Source: Lachnospiraceae bacterium
GTDB taxonomy: Bacteria > Bacillota > Clostridia > Lachnospirales > Lachnospiraceae
DNA length: 64,000 bases
NCBI GenBank assembly: GCA_016286035.1
Contig: JAEERY010000069.1
Location: 1-64,000, forward strand
Direction: 5' to 3'
Below the pieces are notes generated by a model. It did no database searches. It saw nothing but the letters and a program-made list of their open reading frames with translations, and had not been told where the DNA came from. A program made the position numbers and the translations under genes. Positions 4,025 to 62,729 of the stretch are shown piece by piece. Position 1 is the stretch's first letter, and each line of letters opens with the position of its first letter.

Positions 4025-4045
4025 AGTATGAGATCAGATCATACT
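4025..4045 (-). terminator. Weak hairpin at the glycosyltransferase stop codon
   Basis: A perfect 7-bp stem (AGTATGA / TCATACT) with a 7-base loop overlaps the stop of the GT2 gene. On the minus strand a loose CATATTTT follows. The stem is short and AT-rich, so it is at best a weak or partial terminator. Confidence 0.25.
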
Positions 4046-5032
4046 CCTAAACTCTTCTGCTCTGGCGTGATCTCCCAGCTTTTCATAGCACTTTACTATC
4101 TCCGAAAGCGGGATATCCTTTTTACTCTTTATACTCATTAAAGGCTCGGTCTCGTATGCGGCATTGTAATACCACATGGCTGCCTCTTCATAATCACCTA
4201 TCTTATAGAACAGTCCGGCTATCTCACAGCAAAGCTCGCTGCAGCCCTTTGTTGCCACTCCCCTTAAGGCAAACTTGAACTGCTTTTTATAATCACATGT
4301 TATGATGGCCGCCCTTAATGCTATCGTAAGGGCACATAAAAGCTCATCCTCGTTTAATGAATCATCATCACACAGCTTTTCAAAGTACTCATATGCCGTC
4401 TTATAGTTTGCAGGTTCTCCGGCTATATAGAGTTCCTTTTCGTATATATTAAGAAGCCTTTTTGATATGCTCTCGCCGTTTTCTATCATCTTTTCGTATC
4501 TTGCGAGATCCCTGCCGGCATGCACGGAAGAAGGACGGTGTATGATCTCTATATCGCTGTCGTATATGACAGGATCCAGATTTACCTGCTCATGTATCGG
4601 CTCGCTCCATACAAACTGCCTTAACCTCTTATAGAGTTTCGGGCGAAGCTCCTTGTCAAAGTTGTAGATCGTATTATTCTCAAGCTGGTTGCAGTAATAC
4701 ATCTGCACCATTTCTATCTCAGGAAGGAGGTGTTCCTTTAAAGTAAGGAATCTCTTTATATTCTCCCCGTCAAGCTCCTCATCGGCATCGGCACAGTAAA
4801 TGTAGTCCTTTGTAGCAAGAGAAAATGAATAATTTCTCGCATCTGAAAAGCTTCCGGTCCACTTGAAATCATACACTTTATCCGTGTATTTTTTTGCAAT
4901 ATCCTTAGTGTGATCCGAAGAGCCTGTATCAACTATGATGAATTCATCCGCAATGGACTCTAAACTCTTTAAGCATCTGTCCAGACAATGCTCTTCATCT
5001 TTGACTATCATACATACGCTTATTGTGATCAT
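4034..5032 (-). CDS. Family 2 glycosyltransferase with C-terminal TPR-like region
   Basis: A 332-residue cytosolic GT-A enzyme. The N-terminal domain (about 1-190) has ISVCMIVKDEEHCLDRCLKS, the nucleotide-binding DTGSSDHT and the metal-binding DADEE, typical of the group including SunS-like and TPR-fused GT2 enzymes. The C-terminal third has helical repeats such as EIAGLFYKIGDYEEAAMWYYNAAYE, a TPR-like unit. The ATG at 5030-5032 is preferred because the GGTGGG ribosome site at 5039-5044 abuts the alternative ATG six bases earlier. It follows the large surface-protein gene by 13 bases and may be co-transcribed with it, so it could modify that protein or build its glycan; this is inference. Confidence 0.8.
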   Translation of the reverse strand: MITISVCMIVKDEEHCLDRCLKSLESIADEFIIVDTGSSDHTKDIAKKYTDKVYDFKWTGSFSDARNYSFSLATKDYIYCADADEELDGENIKRFLTLKEHLLPEIEMVQMYYCNQLENNTIYNFDKELRPKLYKRLRQFVWSEPIHEQVNLDPVIYDSDIEIIHRPSSVHAGRDLARYEKMIENGESISKRLLNIYEKELYIAGEPANYKTAYEYFEKLCDDDSLNEDELLCALTIALRAAIITCDYKKQFKFALRGVATKGCSELCCEIAGLFYKIGDYEEAAMWYYNAAYETEPLMSIKSKKDIPLSEIVKCYEKLGDHARAEEFRSMI

Positions 5033-5045
5033 AGGCATCCCACCA

Positions 5046-8000
5046 TCAATAATATATCTTCTGTCCCGGGTGTATTTTGTTTCTGTTTCTTATATTGTTT
5101 TTCTGAACAAGATAATCAACGCTTACATGAAGTATCCTGTGAGCTATCTTCCAGAGACTGTCACCCTTCTTTACAACATAGTATCTTTCGGTACCCTCAT
5201 TCAGATTTCCCGAAGAACCCAGCGTATTACCGGTGTAAAAACTACTTGTATATACCTTGCCAACGGTAGCACCATACGTCAGCTTGATGTAATCGGGTCC
5301 GTACCAGGGAATGCTCTTAACTGCGATAACACGGTTTCCTCCGCCGATCGTCGCACTGTAATCAACACCATGCCATTTAAAGTTGAAAATAAGTGTCAGC
5401 TGAGGATTTTCTTCCAGTATATGCATAGCCTCATATGACAGCGAATTACCCCAGTTTAGTACGATCGTCGCACGGCTGCCTTTCTTGGCTGCTGCCTTAA
5501 GATCATTCATGAAGGTTTCGTAATCACCTTCCGGCGGATTCGAATCCGATCCTTCGTTGTTATTATTTCCGCTATCCGGCGTAACCTTATCATTACCGTT
5601 TCCGCCTGCAGGCTTTAAAGCCGCATTTATCGTTATAACGGTTGCAGGAGATGCTTCATAATTGGCAGTCTCCATGTAACGTATATAATATGTTCCCGGT
5701 TTAAGATTCTTTCCCGAAAGATCCGCAATGGTCCCGTAACCCGAATCATAAGCCGTAAGGCTCATCTCCATGGCGCTTGTAAGTCCGGTTATCATACCGT
5801 CATTCTTACCGTAGCCCGTCTCATCAGAACCAGAAAGACTGGGTGCTGACTGACTTGCCTTGTTTATCGTAAGGATTCCGCTTGCAAAGCTTACCTTATA
5901 GTTACCCTGCAGAGTATTTCCGCTTGCACTTATCGTATAGTTTCCGGCATCGATACCCGTTATCGGATCAAATGTGTATGATATGACACTCGCACTGTCA
6001 GACCCCTTAAGGCCGGTAACGCTGGCAGAAAGTGAAGGTAGACTTTCTCCGTATCTGATCGTTACATTGTTTACCGTTACCGTCACGCCGGCCGGTGAGA
6101 CAGTAAATTCCTTGCTGCAGTCTGTGGGAAGCTTATAGTTACCGCTTCTTGAACCGGTGAGCATGGTAACTGTAGCAGTATGCGTTCCCGCACTGCTGTT
6201 GCTACCCGATACCGATACGCCCACACTGTTCTTATCTGTATCTGCAAGACCCGTGATATTGGCAACTGCCACATGCTCATTGCCATCATAGGTAAATGAA
6301 GTATCGCTCCAGTTAATACCGACAGTCTTTTGATCAATGGTCACATTTCCTACAGCCTTAGGAGCAACATCCGTATAATCCTGACCGTCTATCACATACC
6401 ATACGGTATAGTTTCCTGCCTCTTTGGCTGTTGGTATTTTTATATCGAATGCTCCGGTATCACCAACTCTGTATTTCATCACGGCCCCGGAACCCTGTTC
6501 TGTACTTCCCGCAGTTAAAAGCGTCAGATCACTGCCGTTATAAACAAGTCCCATCTTTAATACAGGATCCGTCACGGAAATGACATGAACGGTTACCTGT
6601 GCCTTGCCAGCCGTGGAATCTGATTCATACTTTGCTGTCACGTTGGCATCACCGCTTCCTTTGACAGTCACGGTTCCGTTATCGGAGACTGTTGCAACAG
6701 CTTCATTGCTGCTTGTGTATGTCCATGTGCCGGTTCCCGGTGTTCCCATATCCGTAACAGTGGCATTCAGACCAAACGATGCGCTGCCGACAGCCTTGTT
6801 AACCGTGGTGTTTCCTCCGAGAACGCTTGCTGATGCATCGCTCTTTACACTGAATCTTAAAGGCTGAGCAGATGAATTGCTGTCTAAAAATATCGCAGAT
6901 GAGCTGTCATCATGATAAACCGCAACCAGATCATAACTTCCCTTATTCAGTGTATTAAGATCAAGTTCAGCAAACTGATTAGATGAGCTCACGCTGCTCA
7001 TGTTAAGGATCTTGTCAGTCTCGGCTATATCGGTCGTACCGTTCATGATATACATTTTTCCATTAACGGTATCCTCAAAAAAGTTGCCTACATAGAATCT
7101 GATCGTACCGCCCTGACCCTGTTCGAAATTTTCGATACCGGTAAGCCCCTGTGTTGAGTTGCTTACAGTAGGATTGCTGTAAGTACCGTTGACACACTTT
7201 ATGAAGGTATGGGTCTTATCGATATGAAGGGTCTTCTGAACCGATTTGAATCCATCAACGGCAAAGGTCACATTATGATCACCGCGGGCAACATATTCGT
7301 CGGCTAGGCTCATATTGAACAATCCGTCTTCAGTTAGAGTTGTGCACTGTATCGGAACATCCGTAAGCGTACAGTTTTTATCCACTCCCCGGTATGATAT
7401 ATTCATGGTTGCCGTTATGTCTTTGTTTTCCAGTAATTTATGGGGAACAACCTCATTATTCTCCTTGGGTATGGCAGCATACTCTCCGGAAGGAACATAA
7501 TCGATCCTCTGACCGTTCGAATCCACATCCAGGGTCCTTGTGAAAACATAATCCCACACATTATTGGTACCGCATACTTTGACTCTGACGCCATAAGTTG
7601 AATTCGTAGTATCCACTCCAAACACAGCAGGCGTACATCCGCTCTCCTGCATTATGATATTTGATGAACCATTATTAAAGCTTGCTCCGTAAAGAGCACC
7701 GCATTCCAGGGTCGCAGTCGGAAGCTGCCACGTATCATATTGTGTTATATTATTTGACGTGCTGTTATAGATCATCGGAGAGGCTGTCATCATATAGTTT
7801 CCGCTGGCTTCATCCACCTCGCGAGTTATATTCAGATAGATCCAGTTGTTAACATCCACTCCTCCAATGATCGGTTTGCTGCGGTAATCTTCCTCAGTAC
7901 TGCCAAACCAGTTATAGCTTGGATCGATTTTATCTGGAATATAACACCCACCTCCGAGGATAGAATTATAATTTATCTCTCCTTCTGCAGAATCCGAATT

Positions 8001-8981
8001 CTCTATCTGGATCACATCCTGCAGTTCATTATCAGCAAATAAATTTCCTTTTATCGTCAGCGCATCGGTATTATCAATGTATAGTACTCCGACATGGTCT
8101 GCAGTGTTATTGCTAAACGTACAGTTGCTTATATCTATGGCTTTTTCATTTAATAGATTTAGCGCTCCTCCGTATTCTATAGAATTGTTGCTAAACTCAC
8201 AGCCGGTTATAGTAACGTTGTCTCCGAAGTTTTTGACATACAATGCTCCATCGTCAGTTGTGGTCACACTCGCGCCTTTTAGAGTCATATTTGCGATAAC
8301 AATATTCTTAACGCCTGCGAAATTTTTTCCGTCAAGATACATCAGGCTTCCTGTATAAGAGGAATCAACCGGCTCTATACAGTTGCCGTTACCGTTTATC
8401 GTTAAAGAAGAGGTATTGATGTTCACTCCGGCATTTTCAAACAGTGAGTTGTAAGCAGAACCCGCATTGTCTGCCTTCAGATTGTTGTTCAATACTATGA
8501 TCGTATTATCTGCATTATTGATCTCATCGCTCCTGTTACAGATCATCTGCATTAATTCACCGGTAGTAGAACCTTCAAAATATATGGTGTTTGTATCAAC
8601 AGGTGATGTGGCAGCACCTGGTGCGGCCGCAAAAGTTCCTGCTCTTAAAGCATTTCCCAAAGCAACTGAATTCATTGCGGATGCATTAAAAGTAAGTACC
8701 ACAGTATCGTTTTCGTTGTCTGCTTCCTGAGGCAAGTCCAATGTCTCATTGGTTCCGTTTATGATGATCTGCGTGTTTTGATCAGTTACAATATCAACCG
8801 GATCGGTAATGTTTAATGACTGTTCGGACTGGTTCATCATCCCGATCGCCTGAGACACCATCATGTCCGAAACAGGATTCTCTTCAGCACAGACGGTGAA
8901 AGACATATAATAAAACATAATGTAAAAACTAAGCATTAATCTTGTCAGTCTTACCAATGTTTTTCTCTTAAAAACAAACAT
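5046..8981 (-). CDS. Large secreted surface protein: beta-helix, Ig-like/MBG-like repeats, LysM
   Basis: A 1311-residue exported protein. Residues 1-33 form a signal peptide (KRK, a hydrophobic stretch, then VCAEEN). Residues about 100-330 have parallel beta-helix rungs (ITGCEFSNNS, ISNCTFSNNTAD). Residues about 690-780 resemble a BIG2 domain (SSNEAVATVSDNGTVTVKG). About 870-1040 are MBG/YDG-like repeats (FTYDGNEH, SGNYKL). A low-complexity linker at 1127-1153 leads to a LysM module in the last 45 residues (YYVVKKGDSLWKIAHRI), which should anchor it to peptidoglycan. I count 39 N-x-S/T sequons, all before about residue 1014. The start is the ATG at 8979-8981, with GGAGAAGG upstream; an in-frame TTG 15 bases earlier lies inside that ribosome site. 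It is divergent from the oligosaccharyltransferase gene. Confidence 0.85.
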   Translation of the reverse strand: MFVFKRKTLVRLTRLMLSFYIMFYYMSFTVCAEENPVSDMMVSQAIGMMNQSEQSLNITDPVDIVTDQNTQIIINGTNETLDLPQEADNENDTVVLTFNASAMNSVALGNALRAGTFAAAPGAATSPVDTNTIYFEGSTTGELMQMICNRSDEINNADNTIIVLNNNLKADNAGSAYNSLFENAGVNINTSSLTINGNGNCIEPVDSSYTGSLMYLDGKNFAGVKNIVIANMTLKGASVTTTDDGALYVKNFGDNVTITGCEFSNNSIEYGGALNLLNEKAIDISNCTFSNNTADHVGVLYIDNTDALTIKGNLFADNELQDVIQIENSDSAEGEINYNSILGGGCYIPDKIDPSYNWFGSTEEDYRSKPIIGGVDVNNWIYLNITREVDEASGNYMMTASPMIYNSTSNNITQYDTWQLPTATLECGALYGASFNNGSSNIIMQESGCTPAVFGVDTTNSTYGVRVKVCGTNNVWDYVFTRTLDVDSNGQRIDYVPSGEYAAIPKENNEVVPHKLLENKDITATMNISYRGVDKNCTLTDVPIQCTTLTEDGLFNMSLADEYVARGDHNVTFAVDGFKSVQKTLHIDKTHTFIKCVNGTYSNPTVSNSTQGLTGIENFEQGQGGTIRFYVGNFFEDTVNGKMYIMNGTTDIAETDKILNMSSVSSSNQFAELDLNTLNKGSYDLVAVYHDDSSSAIFLDSNSSAQPLRFSVKSDASASVLGGNTTVNKAVGSASFGLNATVTDMGTPGTGTWTYTSSNEAVATVSDNGTVTVKGSGDANVTAKYESDSTAGKAQVTVHVISVTDPVLKMGLVYNGSDLTLLTAGSTEQGSGAVMKYRVGDTGAFDIKIPTAKEAGNYTVWYVIDGQDYTDVAPKAVGNVTIDQKTVGINWSDTSFTYDGNEHVAVANITGLADTDKNSVGVSVSGSNSSAGTHTATVTMLTGSRSGNYKLPTDCSKEFTVSPAGVTVTVNNVTIRYGESLPSLSASVTGLKGSDSASVISYTFDPITGIDAGNYTISASGNTLQGNYKVSFASGILTINKASQSAPSLSGSDETGYGKNDGMITGLTSAMEMSLTAYDSGYGTIADLSGKNLKPGTYYIRYMETANYEASPATVITINAALKPAGGNGNDKVTPDSGNNNNEGSDSNPPEGDYETFMNDLKAAAKKGSRATIVLNWGNSLSYEAMHILEENPQLTLIFNFKWHGVDYSATIGGGNRVIAVKSIPWYGPDYIKLTYGATVGKVYTSSFYTGNTLGSSGNLNEGTERYYVVKKGDSLWKIAHRILHVSVDYLVQKNNIRNRNKIHPGQKIYY

Positions 8982-9054
8982 ACGCACCTTCTCCAATTTA
9001 TTAAAAAAAGATCAGCTTTAAAACGCCGAAAATCAAAATATTCCACCAATTTAA

Positions 9055-9083
9055 ATTATAAATATGCTGTCATGAAATATCAA
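9055..9083 (-). promoter_or_regulatory. Promoter of the large surface-protein gene
   Basis: On the minus strand: -35 TTGATA (9078-9083), 17-base spacer, -10 TATAAT (9055-9060). It leaves a leader of roughly 65-70 bases before the ATG at 8981. Confidence 0.7.
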
Positions 9084-9111
9084 CCTTTTCCTATTTAAAT
9101 GACGCTTCGTG

Positions 9112-9140
9112 TTGAACAGGTCAGGTCCATCTGTTAGAAT
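9112..9140 (+). promoter_or_regulatory. Promoter of the oligosaccharyltransferase gene, probably leaderless
   Basis: -35 TTGAAC (9112-9117), 17-base spacer, extended -10 TGTTAGAAT with the hexamer at 9135-9140. Only six bases (TTATCC) separate the -10 from the ATG at 9147, so transcription should begin at or very near the start codon. No ribosome site is present upstream. Confidence 0.6.
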
Positions 9141-9146
9141 TTATCC

Positions 9147-11450
9147 ATGGTACGAAAAAACAATAAAAAGCTCATCTTAATACCGCTTATAATGATCGCC
9201 CTGATCATCGTATCCATACTTTTGCGCTATCCGGTCTACCGCTATGTAACAGGATCCGGGGGCACAGCATACATGGACCCCGAGAAAGGCACTCCGTTTC
9301 TTACCGAAATGGACTCCTATTACCATATGCGTATGACCAGGGATATCCTTCAATACGGGCATCCCGGTGATTCCGTAAAAGACGGCTCTTTCTGGGACAG
9401 TCTAAGCTACGCTCCCGACGGGAGAACCGCAAACGGTTACCGTCCTTTGATGGCTTATATCGCGGTTTATACTTATAAGCTGTTCTCTAAATTTTCATCG
9501 GTTACACTTGATCAGATCATCTACTGGCAGGGAATGTTTATCTCTTCACTGATCATCATTCCCGTTTTCATATTTGCTTACAGACTGAAGGGTCTTCCTG
9601 CCGCTATCATTGCGGCTGTATTATCCTCTGTTAATTACGGCTATTTCGTACACACCGTTCCCGGTTTTTATGATACCGATATGGTTAATATGTGGACCTC
9701 AGGCCTTATGTTTTGTCTTGCCTGCATATTCATTGATTCAATAGAGCACATTAAGAAAAAAGGGGACTCCGATAAGTCCGCATATAAGAGGATCATCATC
9801 TTCGGACTTGTTTTTGCAATGAGTTATGCATTGCTGATCCTGTCATGGAGCAGCTATTATCTCTTTGCAGTCGTACTGATAATCTCACTTATACTCTATA
9901 TATTAATAAGATTTATTATCGCTCATAAGGATAGCAAAAAATCCGCTCTCAAAGATCAGAGATATCTGATCCTTACAGTCCTTATTGTGAGCATAATCTT
10001 ATTTATCGATAATCCTTCACTGCTAAAGGATGCCTTTTCAAGACTAATGAGCCTTAAGACAAGCAGTGTAAATGATCTTTTTCCCAATGCATATGTTTCG
10101 ATATCGGAACTCAGAAAGCCTGCACTGATAGCCGGAGGGCTGACCGGTCTTTTCCAGATGAAGGTTCTTTCAGGACCAAACATCGGGATAATAAATGCAG
10201 TCGGAGGCACTGTTCCTTTTATCGGCTCAATAGTCATGCTGATCCTTATCATAAGACGCATTATCGCCCGTGAGATCAGATTTGAATATGTCCTCCTGAC
10301 TGTATGGTTTCTTATTACATCCGTGATGGCTTTCAGGAGCTGGCGTTTCATAATGCTGTTTTCCATACCGGTCGCCATACTGTCCGGATGCCTTATCGGA
10401 CAGATATGCGAACTGATGGATAAAGGCAGGATGATGGACAGATGGGTATATAAGGTAATGCTCTTTATCCTTATGACGTTTCCTGCTCTTTACGGTGCCT
10501 ATAAGTCATTTGCCGATTCGGTACCGATAGTGAATTCGGCTCTTTCACAGACAATGATATCGATAAGAGAATCCACGCCCAAAGACACAATACTTATCAG
10601 CTGGTGGGACTACGGTTATTTCTTTGAAGAGAAGTCCGAAAGAAGAACACTGTTTGATGGCGGAAGCCAGAGCGGTATCAGATGTTATTTTGTATCAAAA
10701 TCTCTCGTCACCCCAAATGAGACCTTAAGTGCCAATATATCAAGAATGCTTTCTTCAAGCGGAGATAAAGCTGCCGAGCTGTGTGTTAAAACCTTCGGGA
10801 ACGATAAAGGAACCCTTTTGCTCATGGACGAGCTCCTCTTGGACGACAGGTCCAATGCCGACAGGATTCTCTCAAATAAAGATATAGATGCACAGACAAA
10901 AGATAAGATACTTTCTCTTCTCTTCCCAGATACGATGTCACCGACCGAATTCATCATCACTCCTGACATGCTCTCGATCTCAGGCTGGTTTGTCGACTTT
11001 AGTATGTACTCGGGCGAAGAAACCTTTGACAAGTCACAGTTCAGTGCCGTTTTAAGTCAGGTACCGGTCTCAGATCTTAGCGGCGATGCAAATACCCTTA
11101 AGACCGATTACGGTTTTGACCTTGTGATATTAAGATCAGCCGACAGATACGCCGCATATACCATAAACGGAGGCTCTGAGCAGCCATATCACATAGATAA
11201 GGTCATGGTCTCAGACAGTAACGGATATGCCGAATATCTCATGTCGGAGGCAGCATCTGACTTAAACGGCTGGTGTGTGATCATCGAAAGGCATGACGAT
11301 CAGACATATCTTTCACTTGTGACCACCCCTTTGGCCGATTCTGTATTCGGAAAGATGCTATTCTTAAGAGGAGCCGGTCTCAGACAGTACGAGTACGATC
11401 CCGCTCTTTCAAATGAAGTATCCGTATATAATGTAAAACGCCCCCAGTGA
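9147..11450 (+). CDS. STT3/PglB/AglB-type oligosaccharyltransferase
   Basis: A 767-residue polytopic membrane protein with an N-terminal half of about 12-13 membrane helices and an extracytoplasmic C-terminal domain. The diagnostic motifs of the single-subunit oligosaccharyltransferases are all present: the first-loop acidic D56 (TEMDSYYHMR), the metal-binding D176-x-D178 (GFYDTDM), the SVSE/TIxE-type motif at 318-321 (SISE, with catalytic-type E321), the sequon-Ser/Thr-binding WWDYG at 486-490, and an MxxI motif at 608-611 like that of Campylobacter PglB. The family transfers a lipid-linked oligosaccharide to Asn in N-x-S/T on the outer face of the membrane. The gene is divergent from a sequon-rich surface protein. 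The family call is strong; glycan and targets are inferred. Such enzymes are unusual in Firmicutes. Confidence 0.92.
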   Translation: MVRKNNKKLILIPLIMIALIIVSILLRYPVYRYVTGSGGTAYMDPEKGTPFLTEMDSYYHMRMTRDILQYGHPGDSVKDGSFWDSLSYAPDGRTANGYRPLMAYIAVYTYKLFSKFSSVTLDQIIYWQGMFISSLIIIPVFIFAYRLKGLPAAIIAAVLSSVNYGYFVHTVPGFYDTDMVNMWTSGLMFCLACIFIDSIEHIKKKGDSDKSAYKRIIIFGLVFAMSYALLILSWSSYYLFAVVLIISLILYILIRFIIAHKDSKKSALKDQRYLILTVLIVSIILFIDNPSLLKDAFSRLMSLKTSSVNDLFPNAYVSISELRKPALIAGGLTGLFQMKVLSGPNIGIINAVGGTVPFIGSIVMLILIIRRIIAREIRFEYVLLTVWFLITSVMAFRSWRFIMLFSIPVAILSGCLIGQICELMDKGRMMDRWVYKVMLFILMTFPALYGAYKSFADSVPIVNSALSQTMISIRESTPKDTILISWWDYGYFFEEKSERRTLFDGGSQSGIRCYFVSKSLVTPNETLSANISRMLSSSGDKAAELCVKTFGNDKGTLLLMDELLLDDRSNADRILSNKDIDAQTKDKILSLLFPDTMSPTEFIITPDMLSISGWFVDFSMYSGEETFDKSQFSAVLSQVPVSDLSGDANTLKTDYGFDLVILRSADRYAAYTINGGSEQPYHIDKVMVSDSNGYAEYLMSEAASDLNGWCVIIERHDDQTYLSLVTTPLADSVFGKMLFLRGAGLRQYEYDPALSNEVSVYNVKRPQ

Positions 11451-12575: not shown

Positions 12576-13270
12576 TATACTGCCCTCCCCGGAATTCTAA
12601 CGCGTGCAAATAATGCTCTCACAAGCCTGATGAACAGTTTGAATACCTTGGGTATAAGCTTTGCTATCACCCATATGCCAAATGTTGCAAGAAGTATTCC
12701 TATACCGATCGCTGCAAGGCCGATCCCTGTCACCAAAAGTCCCGCTGCAGGAACTGCAAATCCCGGCAGTCCCACTATCAGGCATAAAATACCGACTGCT
12801 ATGGCAACCGCTCCCGAAGCCGCTATTGCTATGATCGCTCCCATAATACCGCATGTTACTCCTATAAGAGCACCCAATATTCCAAAGAATACCGGAACGA
12901 TCACCGGTAAAGCCAGTATGAAAAGAATGATCATTAAGATCGATGTTGATCCTTTCATCGATGAACGGCCAAAACCTCTGTCATCACTGCTTGGGATCTT
13001 GTTTGCGAGCTCATCCTTATCATCATTGTAATAGGTTTTGAATCCCGCTTCTGTAAACTCCCCAAGACTTTTATCTGAATCTCTTAATCCCGCCTTGATC
13101 ATAAATGCGATCTTTTCGGGACTCTCGAGTTCTGCCACAATGGACTCTTCATTGTCCTCACCGGCATCCTCGAAATAATCATTGTAGTAGCTTAAGGCTT
13201 CATCCCTCTCATCTGCGGGTATGTCACCGAGAAGCTGCTTCAATTCGGCAAGGAATTGTTGTTTATTCAT
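12575..13270 (-). CDS. DUF1700-family (HAAS-type) membrane protein
   Basis: A 231-residue protein. The first ~65 residues (MNKQQFLAELKQLLGDIPAD to about AFMIKAGL) form the alpha-helical cytoplasmic HAAS/DUF1700 domain. Four or five glycine-rich membrane helices follow from about 105 to 210. DUF1700 proteins are usually coded directly after PadR-family repressors and are thought to interact with or be controlled by them. The start overlaps the PadR stop by eight bases and GAGGGG precedes it, so translation is coupled. Confidence 0.85.
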   Translation of the reverse strand: MNKQQFLAELKQLLGDIPADERDEALSYYNDYFEDAGEDNEESIVAELESPEKIAFMIKAGLRDSDKSLGEFTEAGFKTYYNDDKDELANKIPSSDDRGFGRSSMKGSTSILMIILFILALPVIVPVFFGILGALIGVTCGIMGAIIAIAASGAVAIAVGILCLIVGLPGFAVPAAGLLVTGIGLAAIGIGILLATFGIWVIAKLIPKVFKLFIRLVRALFARVRIPGRAV

Positions 13271-13589: not shown

Positions 13590-13630
13590 ATTTGCATCTC
13601 CCTTCATTGTTCTTGGTTATAATATTATAT

Positions 13631-48905: not shown

Positions 48906-49832
48906 TTATGAATTGAAATATTCACTGTTCGTCGTAAATCTTTTGACCATGCCCTTGGGGAGCGATGTATATGAACAGCCAAGCTTGAATCCAAGATACT
49001 TGCATGCCGTATGCCATATATATACGAAGGCTGACAGAAAATGTGCCTTTTTAACAAGGCTTTTAAGCACACTCTTTACCATCTTCATACCCTCTGCGTT
49101 TTGTTTTACGCTTCCGAAGACTTCCGGGTACTGGGCATGGCTCACTCCGTTGTCAAAGTTTCGCTTAAACTGCTGAATACCGCTGTATTCATGAGAATGA
49201 TATACGCACGCATCGGCGCTGTAGCTTATCTTGTATCCGTTCTTTAAGACCTTTGAGGCATATATCATATCCTCGTTAAACAGTGTCTTATTGACAAAGC
49301 CGTTAAGCTCATCAAATATCTTTTTATCGTAAGCACAGCAGACATTGCTGCAAAAAAAAGCCTTTATCTGGAGTTTTTCTATATCATCGGCTGTCTTTAT
49401 CTGACTTCTGTCGGGATAATTAAACTGCCTGGTAAGCTTTTCGGTAAGCGAGCTGTTTTCATACGCCAGCTGTCTTGCATAGCTTACAGCTATCATGTCA
49501 TCACTAAGAGGCTTTATCAGATTCTCTATCATCTTCTCGTTTGCGGGTATCGCATCCATCGTCATAACGATGCATATATCCGCATCAGATCTTTTCATTG
49601 CCTCGTTTCTTGTCTTCCCGTGATCAAACTGAGATTTTAAAACATGAAAGACTTCGACCTTATCAAGGCACTTATTATCGGGATATTTTTGAACAAAGCT
49701 GTCCCAGTAACTTTTCTCGGTGTTTGCGATTATCACCCTGTCAGGTATAACGCTCTGAGAAAAGAGCATGTCTAGAAGCTCTATAAAGCCCTTATCCGGC
49801 TTATATGTGGGTATAATCACATCTATCTTCAT
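48906..49832 (-). CDS. Family 2 glycosyltransferase, rhamnosyltransferase-like
   Basis: A 308-residue GT-A enzyme. It begins MKIDVIIPTYKPDKGFIELL, then FHVLKSQFDHGKTRNEAMKR, the motif of bacterial rhamnosyltransferases, and the acidic TMDAIP where the metal-binding D-x-D normally sits. VCCAYDKKIFDELNGF and EDMIYASKVLKNGY complete the catalytic half. It probably adds rhamnose or a related sugar to the surface glycan. It follows LCP through a terminator at 49852-49874 and is at the end of the polysaccharide region. Confidence 0.82.
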   Translation of the reverse strand: MKIDVIIPTYKPDKGFIELLDMLFSQSVIPDRVIIANTEKSYWDSFVQKYPDNKCLDKVEVFHVLKSQFDHGKTRNEAMKRSDADICIVMTMDAIPANEKMIENLIKPLSDDMIAVSYARQLAYENSSLTEKLTRQFNYPDRSQIKTADDIEKLQIKAFFCSNVCCAYDKKIFDELNGFVNKTLFNEDMIYASKVLKNGYKISYSADACVYHSHEYSGIQQFKRNFDNGVSHAQYPEVFGSVKQNAEGMKMVKSVLKSLVKKAHFLSAFVYIWHTACKYLGFKLGCSYTSLPKGMVKRFTTNSEYFNS

Positions 49833-49851
49833 ATCCCGCCAAAACTATTTA

Positions 49852-49874
49852 AAGCCCCCTCTGTCAGGGGGCTT
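49852..49874 (-). terminator. Terminator after the LCP gene
   Basis: A 9-bp GC-rich stem AAGCCCCCT / AGGGGGCTT around a 5-base loop. On the minus strand it is followed by TAAATAGTTTTGG. It may be partial, since the next gene has no obvious promoter. Confidence 0.7.
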
Positions 49875-49889
49875 CAAATGAAAAATATT

Positions 49890-50993
49890 CTATCTTCCTG
49901 TATCCGATGATACCTTCTGACTGTATTGCTGAACCTGAGCCGATACCTGATATGTTTCCTCATCAAACAAGAACTTATGCAAAAGTACAACATTCTCATC
50001 AAGATGAACAGGTATTACGCAGCTTCCCTTGCTTCCTACAGTACCTGTGCTCCTGTTGGTCTCGAAGGGGAATCCGTCGCTTCCGGTGATGTCGTACTTT
50101 GTTACATTTCCAAGCATTGCCGTCATCTCACTTACATCCAAGGATGTAGCGACATTGGGCAGTGCTGCTTCAAGTATTTTGTTAAGAGTTGCGGGATCCG
50201 TCTTCTTGCACTCATCCATTACAGCTGCTAAAACGGTACGCTGTCTCTGGGCTCTCATGAAGTCGTCTCCGACATATCTTATACGGCAGTATGCGGTTGC
50301 CTGAAGACCGTTAAGCTTCTGCAGACCGGGTTCTTTTACCGCGATGTAGTCAACACCCTCGGTAGCCGTGTATGTCTTCTTATCGGTAGTCTTACCCACC
50401 ATGCTTATCTGATAGTTGTTAAGATGGACTATCTCGTTTTGCTGCACGTCGATGTATACGCCTCCGAGTGCATCGATAGTCTGGATAAGACCTTCGAATC
50501 CGACCGTAACATAGTCTGTGATATTAAGGTCCATGTTCATGTTGAGCATGTTGATGGCCTGCTCCGGACCACCCTTGGCATATGCTGCATTACACTTGTT
50601 GTATGAATCGTTACCAAGGTTTAAATAGGTGTCTCTGTATACGGAACACAGTCTTATATCTCCCGTATCATTGTTGATGGAAGCTATTATGATGGTATCC
50701 GATCTGGTACCCTTACCCAAGCTTCCCTCTCTTGAGTCAACACCGAAAAGTGCTATGTTTCTGTAGCCTTTTAAAACAACACTGTCAACGACATTATCGT
50801 TCATCTTGGCTTTGATCTCTTCTTCATCGATCCTTACTTTGGTGACCTTCTCTGTCTTTGTTACGCCGTAGACAACTACGACAAGCAGAGCAAGAACAAA
50901 GAACTCGGTTATGAGAAGAAGAATCTTGTTTCTCTTTTTCTTTGCGCGCTTCTTAGCCATTGCGCGTCTCTTTGCGGCCTGCGATGTAGCCAT
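49890..50993 (-). CDS. LytR-CpsA-Psr (LCP) family glycan-wall ligase
   Basis: A 367-residue protein. Its very basic N-terminus (KRRAMAKKRAKKKRNK) is followed by one membrane helix at about 25-45. The LCP domain has NIALFGVDSREGSLGKGTRSDTI, CSVYRDTYLN, FEGLIQTIDALGGVYIDVQQ and YCRIRYVGDDFMRAQRQRTVL, with the conserved Asp and Arg that hold the polyprenyl pyrophosphate. LCP enzymes attach teichoic acids or capsule to peptidoglycan. The gene is directly after the sugar-phosphate transferase gene, so it likely attaches the locus glycan. Confidence 0.93.
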   Translation of the reverse strand: MATSQAAKRRAMAKKRAKKKRNKILLLITEFFVLALLVVVVYGVTKTEKVTKVRIDEEEIKAKMNDNVVDSVVLKGYRNIALFGVDSREGSLGKGTRSDTIIIASINNDTGDIRLCSVYRDTYLNLGNDSYNKCNAAYAKGGPEQAINMLNMNMDLNITDYVTVGFEGLIQTIDALGGVYIDVQQNEIVHLNNYQISMVGKTTDKKTYTATEGVDYIAVKEPGLQKLNGLQATAYCRIRYVGDDFMRAQRQRTVLAAVMDECKKTDPATLNKILEAALPNVATSLDVSEMTAMLGNVTKYDITGSDGFPFETNRSTGTVGSKGSCVIPVHLDENVVLLHKFLFDEETYQVSAQVQQYSQKVSSDTGR

Positions 50994-51027
50994 GATTATA
51001 TACTCTCCATTCTTTTACATATATAAC

Positions 51028-52425
51028 TTAATACGCGTTCTTAAATCCTTTGAATATGGTCAGAAATAAGATCTTAAGATCAAATCCGAAAGACCAGTTC
51101 TCGATATAATACAGATCGTAACTTATCCTCTTGTGGATGGATGTGTCGCCTCTGAACCCGTTTACCTGCGCCCATCCGGTAAGTCCCGGGCGAACCTGAT
51201 GCTTGATCAGATAACGGGGTATCTCCTCTTTGAACTGTTCTACGAATTGCGGCCTCTCGGGTCTTGGTCCGACCAGACTCATGTCCCCCTTAAGGATGTT
51301 AAAAAGCTGTGGAAGTTCATCAAGATTGAAGCGTCTCATGACCCTGCCGCTCTTGGTGACTCTGGGATCATCCTTGACTGTCCATGCCTTCTGTTCTTCC
51401 GTGGCTTCCTGAACACGCATAGTTCTGAATTTATATATATTGAAGGACTTGTTGTGAAGTCCTATCCTTTCCTGTTTGTAAATGACCGGTCCCTTGCTCG
51501 AGAATCGAACGATCAGGGCAAGGATTATCATAAGCGGTGATAAAATTATAATACCAGCCAGTGAGAAAATAAAGTCAAATATTCGTTTTACAACCGCATT
51601 CAGCGTATTGGTCAACGGTACATATCTTATATTAATGACGGGCAATCCGTCAAGTTCCTCTGTGTAGGGCCTGTTGGGTATCAGGCTTGAGTAATCCGGG
51701 ATGAATTTTGTATGCACACCGGATTTCTCGCATTTGCTCACTATCTCTGCGAGCATGTCGTAATCGGAAAGCGACAGGGTTACTGCTATCTCATCAAGAG
51801 TCGCACCTGGGAGCACCACATCGATGTCATCTATCACACCGACTACCTTTACACCCTTGTATACCGTTCCTATCGGCACATTGTTATCAAGTATTCCCCT
51901 TACCACATATCCCCACTGGGGATTGGCGTTCAGTCTGTTTATATACTCCTCGGCAGCCCTCGAATATCCCACTATCAGGACATATTTAAGGTTATATCCC
52001 TTTTTCCTGAACTTTCGAAGCAGCGAGCGGATCGTGCATCTTACGGTAAATGCCAAGATCGTGTTGGTCACACTGAATATGGCGATGAGTCCACGGGAGA
52101 AGTCTTCTACCTTGAACAGTGTGATGGCGATCATGAAAGCTGCAACGCCTATGATGTTCGCCCTTACAACAGCCGACAGCTCCGTCTCAAGTCTCTGCGA
52201 TCTCTTGGGAACGTACATCTTGCACATATAATATATGATCAGATATCCCGGTACCAGATAGTACAGTGCAGAGAAATAGAATGCGGGTGTATGTGCAAGC
52301 GTTGATCCCTGTGATAAGAAGCCCTCAAACTTCAAAAACCATGCGAGCAGATATGATCCCGCAACCACAAGACCGTCTATAACAATGTGAAGTTGATTAA
52401 AATACTTCTGATTATCTTTAATCAT
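51028..52425 (-). CDS. Polyprenyl-phosphate sugar-1-phosphate transferase (WbaP-like)
   Basis: A 465-residue polyisoprenyl-phosphate hexose-1-phosphate transferase. Four N-terminal membrane helices are followed by a CoA-binding-like middle (VLIVGYSRAAEEYI) and the catalytic domain: KRIFDFIFSLAGIIILSPLM, then QERIGLHNKSFNIYKFRTMR and RPERPQFVEQF. It transfers, for example, glucose-1-phosphate to undecaprenyl phosphate and starts the repeat unit. It has its own good promoter and leads the unit with LCP. Confidence 0.92.
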   Translation of the reverse strand: MIKDNQKYFNQLHIVIDGLVVAGSYLLAWFLKFEGFLSQGSTLAHTPAFYFSALYYLVPGYLIIYYMCKMYVPKRSQRLETELSAVVRANIIGVAAFMIAITLFKVEDFSRGLIAIFSVTNTILAFTVRCTIRSLLRKFRKKGYNLKYVLIVGYSRAAEEYINRLNANPQWGYVVRGILDNNVPIGTVYKGVKVVGVIDDIDVVLPGATLDEIAVTLSLSDYDMLAEIVSKCEKSGVHTKFIPDYSSLIPNRPYTEELDGLPVINIRYVPLTNTLNAVVKRIFDFIFSLAGIIILSPLMIILALIVRFSSKGPVIYKQERIGLHNKSFNIYKFRTMRVQEATEEQKAWTVKDDPRVTKSGRVMRRFNLDELPQLFNILKGDMSLVGPRPERPQFVEQFKEEIPRYLIKHQVRPGLTGWAQVNGFRGDTSIHKRISYDLYYIENWSFGFDLKILFLTIFKGFKNAY

Positions 52426-52480
52426 AACTTCCCATTAGCCTTTCCAAGAAACATATGCCCATAAACAACCCAACTAATTG

Positions 52481-52509
52481 ATTATACCAATTAAGTCCAA
52501 AAACCTCAA
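52481..52509 (-). promoter_or_regulatory. Promoter of the sugar transferase-LCP unit
   Basis: Minus strand: -35 TTGAGG (52504-52509), 17-base spacer, TGG plus -10 TATAAT (52481-52486). Confidence 0.65.
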
Positions 52510-52529
52510 GTACGGGCACATTATACGGT

Positions 52530-53516
52530 TCACACAACAAACCTTCTGAATATATTTAAGATCAGTATGAGCTCAACACAGACATAGCGTAAAAATCCCT
52601 TTATGCCAAGTCTTACTTTGTGAGCCCTTCCTTTATCCGATGCACTCAGTTTAAAGCCTTTTGCAAGTCCTTTAAGATAGACCATTCCGTATCCTTTAAG
52701 CGCAAAGAATACTGTCTTTACAAAAAAGCCTGCAAACAAAAAAGGAAGATTTATGATGATCTGAATAAGCGGCATGTTCTTATATATAATGTAAATACTG
52801 TTTCTGCTTGCCAGATCTATCTTGAACTCGTTGTATCTCGAACCGCTGTATCCGCTTCCGGCATGATCGCATACAGCCGATGCGCATGCTGCGTTTTTGT
52901 AGCCGTGAAGAACAGCCCTGTATCCGACATCAACATCCTCCAGATATGCGAAATGCTCCTCATCAAACAGTCCGATCATATCAAATACTGCTCTTTTGTA
53001 TATGGAAGCTCCGCCGCATGAAGAAAAGATGCTCTTTAATCCTTTTTGTGATGCGAACCTGCTTGTAGCTTTCCCCTTGTATGCCGCATATGCCCAGCCT
53101 AAAGCACAGTAGTGATCACCGAAACCGTCGACTAGAGCCGTATCTTTCATCTGCCTCATAAGGGAATTTACGGAAAACAGCTTATCATCAGAAGAGATGG
53201 CCGCTTCAAGCTCGCTCACAAAGTTCTCATCAACGACAACATCATTGTTTAAAAGAAGGATATATTCCGTATCCGAAGCTTCTATGCCTCTGTTTACCGC
53301 ATAAGAGAATCCCGTATTTTCTTTTAGCTCAATGAGGCTTATAAAATCATGCTCACAGTATTTTTTTACGAGGTTTACGCTCTCATCCTTTGAGCCGTTA
53401 TCAACGACTATGATCTTAAAAGCACCTTTAGCCTCGTATGCCTTTATAAGGGAATCAAGACAGGGGGCAAGAAAATCTATTCCGTTGTAATTCGGGATTA
53501 TAACGGTTGTTTTCAT
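52530..53516 (-). CDS. Family 2 glycosyltransferase (WbbL-like)
   Basis: A 328-residue GT2 enzyme: KTTVIIPNYNGIDFLAPCLD, VVDNGSKDES, LLLNNDVVVD and CGGASIYKRAVFD, then EEHFAYLEDVDVGYRAVLHG. This order is characteristic of the WbbL rhamnosyltransferase group. A C-terminal membrane-associated hydrophobic stretch (IIINLPFLFAGFFVKTVFFA) follows. The start overlaps the stop of the next gene upstream (ATGA). It is the last gene of the glycosyltransferase run from 64 kb. Confidence 0.88.
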   Translation of the reverse strand: MKTTVIIPNYNGIDFLAPCLDSLIKAYEAKGAFKIIVVDNGSKDESVNLVKKYCEHDFISLIELKENTGFSYAVNRGIEASDTEYILLLNNDVVVDENFVSELEAAISSDDKLFSVNSLMRQMKDTALVDGFGDHYCALGWAYAAYKGKATSRFASQKGLKSIFSSCGGASIYKRAVFDMIGLFDEEHFAYLEDVDVGYRAVLHGYKNAACASAVCDHAGSGYSGSRYNEFKIDLASRNSIYIIYKNMPLIQIIINLPFLFAGFFVKTVFFALKGYGMVYLKGLAKGFKLSASDKGRAHKVRLGIKGFLRYVCVELILILNIFRRFVV

Positions 53517-54934
53517 CTTACCAGTTCCTCCAGAGAAGGCTCATAGAACACACGGTAGCCCTCGAGCGAACACTGCTGGCATATCTCAAAGCTTAAGTTC
53601 TGCAGCACGTAGTCGTCTATTCCCTTTGTATATATGAATTCACGCATATCAGCGCATTCTTTTTTGCAATTTATTAAATCCTGAATAAATATTTCGCGAT
53701 ACTCGGTTTTTGAAGCAATGGCTGAAACCGCGCCAAACAGCTCTTTTCTGACGAACATAAACCTTATATCCACGGCAACGGCGTCCTGCTGGAGCGTGTT
53801 TCTGTGCATATATCCTGAGAAGTTCACATTCTGACCTTCGAGCGGACATGAACCTGTCTCATCAAGAATACCGCTTGTTATTTTTCCATGTCTGACTATG
53901 GGACCGCCTACGATACCTATGTCAAATCTGTTTTTAAATATATCTTCAACACCCACCATGCTGCCGGCTGCGTTGATCTCGCCCGTGGTACCGTTTATGG
54001 CACCGTAAATGACTCTGAAAAAGCCGTTATGCTTTGTATCGACGACCGCGCCGTTGACATGCCAGTTCTTTAAGAAGTCTGCTACCGCTCTTTTTCCTGC
54101 TTCATATGCATATCTCTTGCTCTCCGGATTTGATGCGGTCGAATCGTTATGACATCTCCAGTGATATAAGACCTTAGGCACATGACCTATGGGTCTGTCG
54201 CTTGTTCTGTAGGCTCTAAGGAGCAGATCGTGATCCTGGGCGCCGTCATATTCGCTTCTTAGTTCAAGTTTTTTGATAAGAGACGATTCCATCACCACAA
54301 AATGACATATGTAGTTGTTCGAGAGCAAAAGATCAAGATCAAATTCGGGCTTGCGGTTGGGTTCATAGAACTTTTCACCGTAGGTATCGCATTTATCCTC
54401 GTCTGTATAGATGAATGAATACTTTGTTCCGTCCTTTTTTCCGTCCTCTATCTTTCTTGCAAGCTCATAGAGCGCATTCGGAGTAAGAAGATCATCATGA
54501 TCAAGTAAACCGATATACTGTCCGGAAGCCACTCTTATTCCCACGTTTGTGTTGGCGGCTATCCCTTTATCGTCAGTGTTTCTTATATAGGTTATCCTCT
54601 CATCGTCAAAAGAGCGGACCACCTGCTCGACCTTGTCGGATTTGCTGGCATCGGCGATTATCAGTTCAAATGTCGGATATGTCTGGTTGAGCACGGATCT
54701 TATCATCGCTCTTGCAAACACCTCATTTGTCTCATATGCAGGCACAACAATAGAGAACCTCGTTCTGATGTCAAAACGAGCTTCTCTCTGTATCTTTGCC
54801 TCGGCCTGTGTGATATCCCTGTATTCGTACTTTTTCGCATCCTGTGAAAGACGCTCTGCAGACGCGTACAGGGTATCCTTAAGACCGTTCTTCTTCATGT
54901 AATTGTATGCTTTTCTGAAATCGCCTAAGTTCAT
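53513..54934 (-). CDS. Glycosyltransferase: complete GT2 domain plus half of a second
   Basis: A 473-residue protein. Residues about 58-300 form a complete GT2 domain (FSIVVPAYETNEVFARAMIR, IADASKSD, GLLDHDDLLT, YTDEDKCD, HWRCHNDS). The remaining part aligns with only the second half of the second GT2 domain in the 647-residue paralogue: IGIVGGPIVRHGKITSGILD, NFSGYMHRNTLQQDAVAVDI and RKELFGAVS. It lacks the start of that domain. It therefore seems to have one active site. See the finding on complementary domain loss. Start within GAGATGAT-ATG. Confidence 0.85.
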   Translation of the reverse strand: MNLGDFRKAYNYMKKNGLKDTLYASAERLSQDAKKYEYRDITQAEAKIQREARFDIRTRFSIVVPAYETNEVFARAMIRSVLNQTYPTFELIIADASKSDKVEQVVRSFDDERITYIRNTDDKGIAANTNVGIRVASGQYIGLLDHDDLLTPNALYELARKIEDGKKDGTKYSFIYTDEDKCDTYGEKFYEPNRKPEFDLDLLLSNNYICHFVVMESSLIKKLELRSEYDGAQDHDLLLRAYRTSDRPIGHVPKVLYHWRCHNDSTASNPESKRYAYEAGKRAVADFLKNWHVNGAVVDTKHNGFFRVIYGAINGTTGEINAAGSMVGVEDIFKNRFDIGIVGGPIVRHGKITSGILDETGSCPLEGQNVNFSGYMHRNTLQQDAVAVDIRFMFVRKELFGAVSAIASKTEYREIFIQDLINCKKECADMREFIYTKGIDDYVLQNLSFEICQQCSLEGYRVFYEPSLEELVR

Positions 54935-54958
54935 ATCATCTCATAGGGAAATCGTTTA

Positions 54959-56686
54959 TCACATATCTATGCAGGCTTTCAGTGCATCCGTCAATGCCTC
55001 GTTCTTTTTAGCGGCGTCATCAAGGCTGTTTCCTTTGACACCCATATAGAACTTAAGCTTGGGTTCTGTTCCCGAAGGTCTTGCACAGCACCATGCATCG
55101 TCATTAAGCTCAAAGTAGAGAACATTTGACTGGGGAAGGCCTGTCTTTGTGACATTTCCGGTCTCCATATCCTTTACGGTATCCTTGTCATAGTCTCTGA
55201 AAGAGATAACCTTGTAATCTCCAAGCTGCTTGGGAGGATCGTTTCTTAAGTTCTCCATGATTGCAGCTATCTGCTTTGAACCTTCAACACCCTTAAGTGT
55301 TATAGAATACTGTGTCTCTTTGAAGTATCCGTATTCCTCATACATCTGGATCATGCGATCCCATACCGTGATACCCTTTGACTTGCACCATGCGGCAACC
55401 TCGCAAAGAAGCATTACGGCTACGATGGCATCCTTGTCTCTTGCATGTGTTCCGGCTAAGCATCCGTATGACTCTTCAAGGCCGAATACATAGTTGTGAT
55501 CGCCCTTTTCAATAGCCCACTTTATCTGCTCGCCGATATATTTGAATCCTGTGAGCACCTCGATCATGTCCACACCGTATTTCTTTGTTATAACGTCTGC
55601 CATATTTGTTGTGACTATCGTCTTAACAAGCATGGGATCCTTAGGCATTGTGCCTGTGTTTATCCTCTCTGAGAGAACATAATCGGCAATCAGCATGCCT
55701 GACATGTTTCCTGTGAAAGAAACATAGTCCTTTGTATTTGTATCATAAGCATAGATTCCGAGTCTGTCGGCATCGGGATCGGTCGCAAGAACGATATCCG
55801 CTCCGACCTTCTTTGCAAGCTCGAGTGCAAGCTTGAATGCCTTGGGATCCTCGGGATTGGGATATTCAAGAGTCGTGAAGTTGGGATCGGGCATTTCCTG
55901 CTCAGGAACAACATACACGTTCTTGAACCCTATCTCTTTAAGTATCCTTCTTGCGGGAACGTTTCCTGTTCCGTTGAAAGGTGTATATACGATCTTGATA
56001 TCATCGGCTACCTTTTGAATGATCTCCGGATGTATTATCTGCTTCTTTAACTCTTCCATGTACTTGTCATCTATCTCACTTCCGATGACCTGATAGAGGC
56101 CCTTATCAAGAGCTTCTTTCTTGTCCATGGTCTTAACGCTGTTATAATCGGTTACGGCTCTTACCTCGGCGATGATCTCCTTGTCTCTCGGAGATGTAAC
56201 CTGTGCGCCGTCTTCCCAGTATACCTTGTATCCGTTGTACTCAGGGGGATTGTGGCTTGCAGTCACAACTATACCTGCCGTACAGCCGAGTGTACGCAGT
56301 GCGAATGAAAGCTCGGGTGTGGGTCTTAATGCATCAAAGACATATGCCTTTATCCCGTTTGCTGCAAGGCAAAGACCTGCTTCATCGGCAAACTCGGGGC
56401 TCATGCGTCTTGAATCGTACGCGATGGCAACACCTTTGCTCTGTGTTCCTGCCTTTATTATATAATTTGCAAGACCCTGTGTAGCTTTTCTTACGGTATA
56501 TATGTTCATTCTGTTGGTTCCGGCTCCGATAACGCCTCTGAGACCGCCGGTACCGAATTCAAGATCCTTGTAGAATCTGTCCTCGATCTGAGCCTTATCA
56601 TCACCTATAGCCTTGAGTTCAGCCTTGGTAGCATCATCAAAATAGGGATCATTCAGCCAAAAATCATATTCCTCCATGTAACCCAT
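54959..56686 (-). CDS. pgcA: Phosphoglucomutase / phosphomannomutase
   Basis: A 575-residue alpha-D-phosphohexomutase. The phosphoserine loop is VTASHNPPEYNGYK, the metal loop is ATDPDADRLGIYA, the sugar loop is GLEESYG and the phosphate loop is CARPSGTEPKLK. Length and sequence fit Firmicutes PgcA. It provides glucose-1-phosphate for nucleotide sugars used by the neighbouring glycosyltransferases. The ATG at 56684-56686 has TGGAGG seven bases upstream; the longer frame overlaps this site. Confidence 0.93.
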   Translation of the reverse strand: MGYMEEYDFWLNDPYFDDATKAELKAIGDDKAQIEDRFYKDLEFGTGGLRGVIGAGTNRMNIYTVRKATQGLANYIIKAGTQSKGVAIAYDSRRMSPEFADEAGLCLAANGIKAYVFDALRPTPELSFALRTLGCTAGIVVTASHNPPEYNGYKVYWEDGAQVTSPRDKEIIAEVRAVTDYNSVKTMDKKEALDKGLYQVIGSEIDDKYMEELKKQIIHPEIIQKVADDIKIVYTPFNGTGNVPARRILKEIGFKNVYVVPEQEMPDPNFTTLEYPNPEDPKAFKLALELAKKVGADIVLATDPDADRLGIYAYDTNTKDYVSFTGNMSGMLIADYVLSERINTGTMPKDPMLVKTIVTTNMADVITKKYGVDMIEVLTGFKYIGEQIKWAIEKGDHNYVFGLEESYGCLAGTHARDKDAIVAVMLLCEVAAWCKSKGITVWDRMIQMYEEYGYFKETQYSITLKGVEGSKQIAAIMENLRNDPPKQLGDYKVISFRDYDKDTVKDMETGNVTKTGLPQSNVLYFELNDDAWCCARPSGTEPKLKFYMGVKGNSLDDAAKKNEALTDALKACIDM

Positions 56687-56733
56687 ATAAACACCTCCAT
56701 ATATCATTAGATTTAAATATTATATCATATTAA

Positions 56734-62719: not shown

Positions 62720-62729
62720 CTAACTCTTC

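Follow-up and report, generated by a model that had tools for sequence, protein, structure and literature searches.

Whether N-glycosylation of proteins, by en bloc transfer of a preassembled glycan, extends to Gram-positive gut bacteria, and on which protein it would act there, is the question raised by an open reading frame (ORF) at positions 9147..11450 (+) of a 64,000-nucleotide stretch of DNA from a Lachnospiraceae bacterium (GenBank assembly GCA_016286035.1, contig JAEERY010000069.1, positions 1 to 64,000), referred to below as the window. The ORF encodes a single-subunit oligosaccharyltransferase (OST) of the STT3/AglB/PglB type. Most of what is documented on en bloc N-glycosylation comes from eukaryotes, archaea, Campylobacterota and Desulfovibrio, and among the open-licence papers listed in our searches we saw none that describes an OST, or N-glycosylation, for Lachnospiraceae or for Clostridia of other families, subscription papers being outside the scope of that search. 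We consider it highly probable that the enzyme acts on N-x-T/S sites (sequons) together with a dedicated surface acceptor, the pair belonging to a system of rumen and gut Clostridia. The most telling evidence is the candidate acceptor encoded next door, which lies outside 9147-11450.

The enzyme and the gene next door

The gene begins with ATG and runs uninterrupted for 767 amino acids. Its product scores 135.7 bits against Pfam PF02516 (STT3; cut-off 24.5) and 44.5 bits against PF21436 (STT3-PglB core; cut-off 23), values that exclude a chance match, and a phmmer search of the PDB finds C. lari PglB (5ogl) at 3e-11. An earlier sequence-only reading had called the protein a complete STT3/PglB-type OST carrying every diagnostic motif, and on both counts it was right: D56, D176-x-D178, S318-E321 (SISE), W486-G490 (WWDYG) and M608-x-x-I611 lie at the residues it gave. 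In a 40-row alignment of OSTs from Bacillota, methanogens, other archaea, Campylobacterota and Thermodesulfobacteriota, D56, D176, R400, W486, W487, D488, G490 and Y491 are invariant, while D178 and E321 are at least 90% conserved. The metal and catalytic set is therefore present in the form of the first-loop Asp, the second DxD and the Glu of external loop 5 in the TIxE/SVSE place, as are WWDYG and an MI-type Ser/Thr pocket, with I611 variable among relatives; names and definitions of the motifs (TIxE/SVSE, WWDYG, DK/MI, DGGK) are those of PMC8342417. The phmmer alignment pairs D176 with PglB residue 154 and W486 with residue 463; E321 has no Glu partner in PglB there, and finds one in the Campylobacterota sequences of the 40-row alignment.

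An AlphaFold2 model of the enzyme (predicted local distance difference test, pLDDT, 90.1; predicted template modeling score, pTM, 0.90) combines a GT-C membrane fold with a C-terminal globular OST domain, and the top Foldseek match of this predicted structure is again C. lari PglB (5ogl_A, E 7.7e-22, TM 0.67/0.72), over the whole fold, with human STT3 and A. fulgidus AglB next in rank. The cut-offs of the NCBIfam ProtGlycPglB equivalog (69.2 bits vs 1300) and of TIGR04154, the archaeosortase-associated STT3, AglB (78.3 bits vs 450), are not reached. The enzyme is itself poor in sequons (2 N-x-S/T vs 3.2 expected). As a separate observation, the AglBs of four Methanobrevibacter loci (L051, L057, L060 and L073) hold 17-19 sequons where ∼8 are expected, which is suggestive of self-glycosylation.

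Divergently transcribed from the OST gene, across an intergenic region at 8982..9146 delimited from the ORF coordinates and the sequence, is the gene for a predicted secreted surface protein at 5046..8981 (-), ∼1,311 residues long when counted from its ATG. The listed ORF begins at TTG 8996; GGAGAAGG, five bases upstream of an ATG at 8981, suggests that translation starts at that codon. By alignment the protein opens with a signal peptide of the type RLTRxxLxxYxxxxxMSFTVCA (8886..8981, -), probably cleaved after VCA, and continues into an ectodomain (ORF residues 55-1021; 5934..8834, -) that holds all 39 of its N-x-S/T sites. An MBG_2 domain lies at 5868..6086 (-; PF18676, 54.2 bits) and a LysM domain at the C-terminus (5055..5180, -; PF01476, 44 bits).

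Shuffling the whole ORF with its composition preserved gives 23.3 ± 4.2 sequons, so that the 39 observed correspond to z 3.8, and among 45 window ORFs tested this is the only one to exceed a z of 2. The sites are confined to residues 55-1019, so that residues 40-1021 contain 39 vs 19.1 expected and the last 295 residues, around the LysM domain, contain none vs 4.4 expected (P=0.0056). Between residues 37 and 1021 there are 26 N-x-T vs 10.3 expected and 13 N-x-S vs 8.7. Known OSTs favor Thr over Ser at the sequon. For PglB this preference is given in PMC11164674.

From established OST biochemistry one would expect the membrane enzyme to take a glycan that has been preassembled on polyprenyl diphosphate and move it en bloc to the Asn of N-x-T/S, acting on secreted proteins outside the cell membrane. 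In its own genome the prime substrate would be the divergent LysM protein of 5046-8981, an assignment that we infer from adjacency, site specificity and co-occurrence; the outer ∼965 residues of this putative acceptor would offer its 39 sequons at a spacing of about one per 25 residues and its LysM end would stay free of glycan sites.

Site specificity and linkage to the enzyme

In order to quantify the specificity of the sequon excess we pooled 12 proteins picked by the signal-peptide motif (five of them truncated, 10,664 amino acids in all), leaving locus L020, which comes from the same record as L038, out of the pooled motif and linkage counts. In this family N-x-T occurs 233 times vs 70.7 expected and N-x-S 104 times vs 62.4. 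Control motifs are flat, spanning 0.96-1.05 of expectation: N[ST] 140/138.4, N..[ST] 131/136.5, [ST].N 139/137.5, D-x-[ST] 128/124.4, Q-x-[ST] 30/28.5 and, likewise, N...[ST]. NP[ST] is found 4 times vs 4.8 expected, [ST]-x-[ST] 348 times vs 293.6 (1.19), and Asn followed by other residues at +2 is low (0.10-0.83), as the sequon excess requires. Acidic residues are not favored at position -2 (D 1.00x, E 0.53x) over 482 sites drawn from the family and five neighbors of other architecture; because the latter were chosen after scoring, their enrichment (145 vs 56.8) is circular and only their motif specificity is used.

The signal peptide is better conserved than what it precedes. Among nine proteins longer than 300 residues the first 40 amino acids are 57% identical vs 30% for the remainder, the direction being the same in 36 of 36 pairs. 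Signal peptides are not usually so well conserved, and a role in sorting is suggested; the peptide may address the acceptor to the OST. The sites themselves turn over, with a conservation between homologues of 0.56 vs 0.49 for sequon Asn and 0.68 vs 0.53 for Ser/Thr, values so mildly raised that they are not used as main evidence. The relative of the acceptor in the genome of strain MC2017, itself a candidate acceptor (L044:13423-17226), has 54 sequons.

Linkage to the OST was scored without a hydrophobicity filter, an ORF of at least 150 residues being counted as site-dense if it had z of at least 3 and at least 5 sites, and as near if it lay no more than 6 kb from the OST. In the 34 Bacillota loci 14 of 236 near ORFs are site-dense, distributed over 13 loci, vs 0 of 109 further off. 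Corresponding counts are 0/242 near and 1/79 far in 33 loci of Campylobacterota, Thermodesulfobacteriota and Myxococcota, 0/66 and 0/19 in 15 archaeal OST loci, and 0/32 and 0/14 in three loci from Saccharibacteria, Atopobiaceae and Tenericutes. A count with a hydrophobicity filter (467 sequons vs 244.9 in 39 near proteins, 107 vs 85.3 in 28 far ones) had overlooked several acceptors, including that of the window, and was redone without it to give the figures above.

Signal peptide and enzyme also occur together. A profile of the peptide matches the same 2 of 20 genus genomes as does STT3, and in a sample of 200 family genomes gives three strong matches, all in OST-bearing genomes; these are the genomes that supplied rows of the profile, so that the informative part of the result is the absence of strong matches elsewhere. 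Genome G189, whose OST belongs to another clade, has no match in the family sample. One marginal match (E 8.7e-4) in an OST-less genome, G178, was examined and set aside as chance, since the 214-residue frame contains no sequon and its signal peptide looks ordinary. Of eight OST-bearing genomes that were searched individually six have the peptide; L040, L042 and L044 had supplied rows, and without them the unbiased figure is 3 of 5. Two full-length proteins that are not in the profile, each on a contig other than that of its OST, are likewise dense in sites: L125, at least 25 kb from its OST by contig positions, has 27 sequons vs 10.0 expected, and L168 has 42 vs 12.6 with flat controls. The latter starts 355 bases from the end of its contig, no end overlap with the OST contig being found. 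Three fragments complete the set, namely L169 (6 vs 2.4), L170 (5 vs 3.5, cut at the signal) and L171, with 29 residues at the very end of its genome's OST contig, L049, to which L171 is identical.

Competing explanations and the origin of the enzyme

The OST could be a general N-glycosylation enzyme with many secreted targets of which the LysM protein is merely the most obvious. Archaeal, eukaryotic and Campylobacter OSTs do have many targets, the secreted proteins on two contigs of the same genome, C24 and C88, are slightly rich in N-x-T (68 vs 58.4), and genome G052 has three site-dense proteins. We nevertheless think this doubtful. With the acceptor excluded, the secreted set on C24 and C88 (∼10% of the genome) holds 132 sequons vs 121.3 expected, and the control D-x-[ST] stands at 1.22 in that same set; cytosolic (254/247.4), membrane (65/67.5) and other proteins (46/45.8) are at expectation, and the acceptor is the sole large sequon-dense protein in this sample, although the density argument has a limit in that unenriched proteins could still have chance sites used. 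That sequon density is instead a by-product of Asn-rich repeats (beta-helix, MBG, Ig-like) is suggested by the Chlam_PMP-like, MBG and Big domains of the acceptors. In genomes without an OST, however, ten surface proteins matched by domain reach only 263 vs 227.9 (1.15x; N-x-T 1.22x, with [ST].N at 1.18x and D-x-[ST] at 1.32x), compared with 2.53x (3.3x for N-x-T) and flat controls in the family. Local shuffles over 30 residues leave the result unchanged, the acceptor's sites are spread over residues 55-1019 and cease before the LysM end, and acceptors that lack the signal peptide and accompany other OST clades are dense too (L053 39/14.1, L068 30/10.0). On the strength of all three kinds of control (other motifs, shuffling within short stretches, and proteins of matching domains) we reject repeat architecture as the cause, an explanation that we now find very improbable; the exception, one of the ten, is an MBG fragment from a genome of the genus, at L150:2838-7085 (-), with 34 sequons vs 20.7, which may reflect copying of repeats or an OST missed in a genome that is 84% complete. 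It has also to be asked whether the protein is an STT3-fold GT-C enzyme whose substrate has become a wall polymer, or some other acceptor, in place of protein Asn. GT-C enzymes decorate Gram-positive teichoic acids (PMC8035078), and wall-polysaccharide genes are present in the genome, but retention of the catalytic and Ser/Thr-pocket motifs, a predicted PglB fold match that extends to the C-terminal domain and the sequon-rich protein encoded next door leave this scarcely credible.

A further alternative concerns ancestry, namely that the OST is a bacterial enzyme of the PglB lineage and not a relative of methanogen AglB. The sequence-only reading had taken MxxI as the mark of a bacterial as opposed to an archaeal type, and MI-type residues at 608 and 611 together with PglB as top solved structure in both phmmer and Foldseek would fit. 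The motif does not bear the inference, however, since MI occurs in part of the Archaea as well, according to PMC8342417. An unrooted tree of 78 sequences, from which seven truncated OSTs and L020 were left out, places the enzyme in a 14-member Bacillota clade (support 100/100). A larger group of 43 rows (98/96) unites 31 Bacillota rows, the window's OST included, with nine Methanobacteriaceae AglBs and single sequences from Atopobiaceae, Tenericutes and Saccharibacteria, whereas the PglB clade (29 rows from Campylobacterota, Thermodesulfobacteriota and Myxococcota, 100/99) has no Bacillota inside. The tree sets the Bacillota apart from PglB, with the reservation that a tree in which the bacteria, Bacillota and PglB, stand on one side of a branch without the methanogens gives p 0.086 in the approximately unbiased (AU) test. 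The closest non-Bacillota relatives are again Methanobacteriaceae, among the best 80 of at least 422 relatives that were kept in the genome scan. At residues 607-611 of the pocket the enzyme has D-M-L-S-I, where Methanobrevibacter has D-M-I-G-K and Campylobacterota have, e.g., R-M-L-D-I. At 504-507 the enzyme has DGGS, not the DGGK of PglBs, and the longer DGGSQSG (504-510) is in common with Methanobrevibacter; it is a weak lineage marker because L076, a member of the PglB clade, carries DGGSQGS. In PMC8342417 DGGK is the motif assigned to PglBs and to the AglBs of Euryarchaeota. Taken together these results make descent from the PglB lineage unlikely. PMC4973528 reports that a few bacterial homologues branch among the euryarchaeal sequences and that genes passed from archaea to bacteria at least twice. 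Apart from these relationships, L022, L075, L083 and L101 form a separate Bacillota OST clade (100/100), with ORFs of 873-1,012 residues and no site-dense gene within 6 kb.

The preferred reading of an OST paired with a dedicated acceptor has several points against it. N-glycosylation is here deduced from genes and models, and the AlphaFold2 model of the acceptor (7 sequences, pLDDT 46.1) is too poor to judge site exposure. Shared ancestry within the family means that its sequons are not all independent, and in L038/L020 the protein with the signal peptide has just a mild excess (10 vs 6.4). No near site-dense ORF is found in 21 of the 34 Bacillota OST loci; some of these 21 are truncated, and for one of them, L041, the copy lies on a different contig. 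Of the two individually searched genomes that lack the signal peptide, AD3010 belongs to the same OST clade as the window's enzyme, while YRB3002 belongs to the other. C24 encodes a small protein of 216 residues with 4 sequons where 0.4 are expected (z 4.3), and the fragment L150, OST-less as its genome appears, reaches z 3.4. The neighbors of a second OST in the genome, described below, show no clear excess of sites (7/6.0 and 7/6.0). Finally, the best own-genome matches to one relative's flippase and to one relative's Dpm-like glycosyltransferase are each 29% identical and each on another contig.

Within the preferred reading a more specific version can be put forward tentatively, in which the system is addressed by the signal peptide and has one enzyme for one substrate, an AglB-type OST, acquired by gut Clostridia and shared with methanogens, serving mucin-like surface proteins with one site per ∼25 residues that would be directed to it during secretion and would form a dense N-glycan coat; we hold this to be possible, though short of an even chance.

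Genomic setting, distribution and known systems

A second OST, absent from the sequence-only reading and ∼25% identical to the first, is encoded on C24 (L024:9296-11470, -); in the tree it groups apart from the first, with further Bacillota enzymes and the one from Atopobiaceae (100/100). Overlapping its start is a gene for a 425-residue secreted protein (L024:11445-12722, -) with 7 N-x-T vs 2.6 expected (P=0.01) and no N-x-S vs 3.3, or 7 vs 6.0 for both. In YRB3002, from the same clade, the upstream gene overlaps the OST by four bases and has 35 N-x-T vs 9.5. The pairing of OST and acceptor appears to recur with another acceptor type, the evidence in the window's own genome being suggestive.

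Genes that might build the glycan are also found. A GT2 glycosyltransferase (4034..5038, -; PF00535, 73.2 bits) lies 7 bases downstream of the acceptor gene and, to judge from this position, possibly helps to assemble the glycan. A polysaccharide cluster at 48906..63917 (-), starting ∼37 kb from the OST and annotated from Pfam, comprises Bac_transf, several GT2s, an LCP protein, a phosphomutase and a Wzt-type ABC ATPase; the Bac_transf protein, an initiating phosphoglycosyltransferase, is at 51028-52425. The cluster is a possible source of the lipid-linked donor. In many relatives the OST lies beside Wzx flippases (PF01943), GT2 enzymes, a DUF2304 protein and GT4s, and the system as we picture it would elsewhere often consist of the OST with a Wzx-type flippase, GT2s, a DUF2304 protein, sometimes LicD, and at least one acceptor. 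In the window no flippase was found beside the OST, a GT2 being near, and the clustering of Campylobacter-type pgl loci is not seen. Two OST clusters include LicD, in one case fused to a flippase (L020:7261-9615, -) and in the other as a protein beside the flippase (L042:7553-8470, +), a hint of phosphocholine-like decoration of the glycan. Just past the OST, at 11694-13607, DUF4097/LiaG-like, HAAS and PadR genes stand in a row and are likely an envelope-stress operon. The window has no tRNA and no Rfam match at the gathering threshold.

The rarity in Firmicutes that the sequence-only reading had noted is borne out, with STT3 above its cut-off in 4 of 200 sampled family genomes (6 at E≤0.001) and 2 of 398 phylum genomes, one of them marginal at 25.5 bits (12 at E≤0.001); in the genus the figure is 2 of 20, and the window's own genome is counted in all three samples. 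Its suggestion that the gene is settled in this genome agrees with the composition (GC 0.435 for the gene vs 0.432 for the window), but few genomes of the genus have it. The closest relatives (41-50% identical, among the best 80 of at least 422) are from Lachnospiraceae and other Clostridia, with titles that are mostly rumen. They include MC2017 and AD3010, whose records carry no label of a metagenome-assembled genome (MAG), as is true also of YRB3002, which has an enzyme of the second kind; we take all three to be cultured isolates. Relatives in such records make a binning artefact unlikely. OSTs were seen in addition in Saccharibacteria, Atopobiaceae and Tenericutes genomes (L067, L072 and L074), and a single-protein OST query found no relative in viral contigs.

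What emerges is strong evolutionary evidence that N-glycosylation works in Gram-positive gut bacteria too, on short, eukaryote-like N-x-T/S sites. The genome itself names the likely substrate of the OST, and the question can be tested in MC2017, a strain with a named genome. OSTs that are seemingly free of an acidic requirement at -2 are on offer, and the results point to a surface coat on rumen bacteria, one that could play a part in recognition by phages or by the host.

Compared with known systems, the enzyme resembles the PglB of Campylobacter (C. jejuni, C. lari) and Desulfovibrio in being a single-subunit OST with the same fold, motif order and MI-type Ser/Thr pocket. It differs in its separate position in the tree, in DGGS for DGGK and in SISE in the TIxE/SVSE place, and none of the 33 Campylobacterota, Thermodesulfobacteriota and Myxococcota loci has a site-dense ORF within 6 kb. 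C. jejuni PglB requires D/E at -2, as stated in PMC4894442, whereas the N-x-T/S sequon that we propose here lacks an acidic -2 preference; the same paper reports that some Campylobacter and Desulfovibrio PglBs accept a minimal N-x-T, so that short sites alone are not new in bacteria. The AglBs of Methanobacteriaceae (Methanobrevibacter, Methanovirga) are the nearest kin outside the Bacillota and have EMDSY and DGGSQSG in common with the enzyme, but identity is 26-34% over the best segment (among the best 80 of at least 422), DMLSI replaces DMIGK, the length is 767 vs ∼900 residues, and the site-dense neighbor found here is absent from their loci. A dedicated glycosylation locus for one large Gram-positive surface protein is known from the Fap1-type serine-rich-repeat adhesins of streptococci, where Ser repeats are O-glycosylated stepwise in the cytosol, unlike the present combination of an OST with N-x-T/S sites. 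In archaeal S-layer glycoproteins, large sequon-bearing surface proteins are glycosylated en bloc by single-subunit AglB; site-dense ORFs within 6 kb are found in 0 of 15 archaeal loci, whereas here the candidate acceptor is encoded next to its OST, opening with a bacterial signal peptide and ending in LysM.

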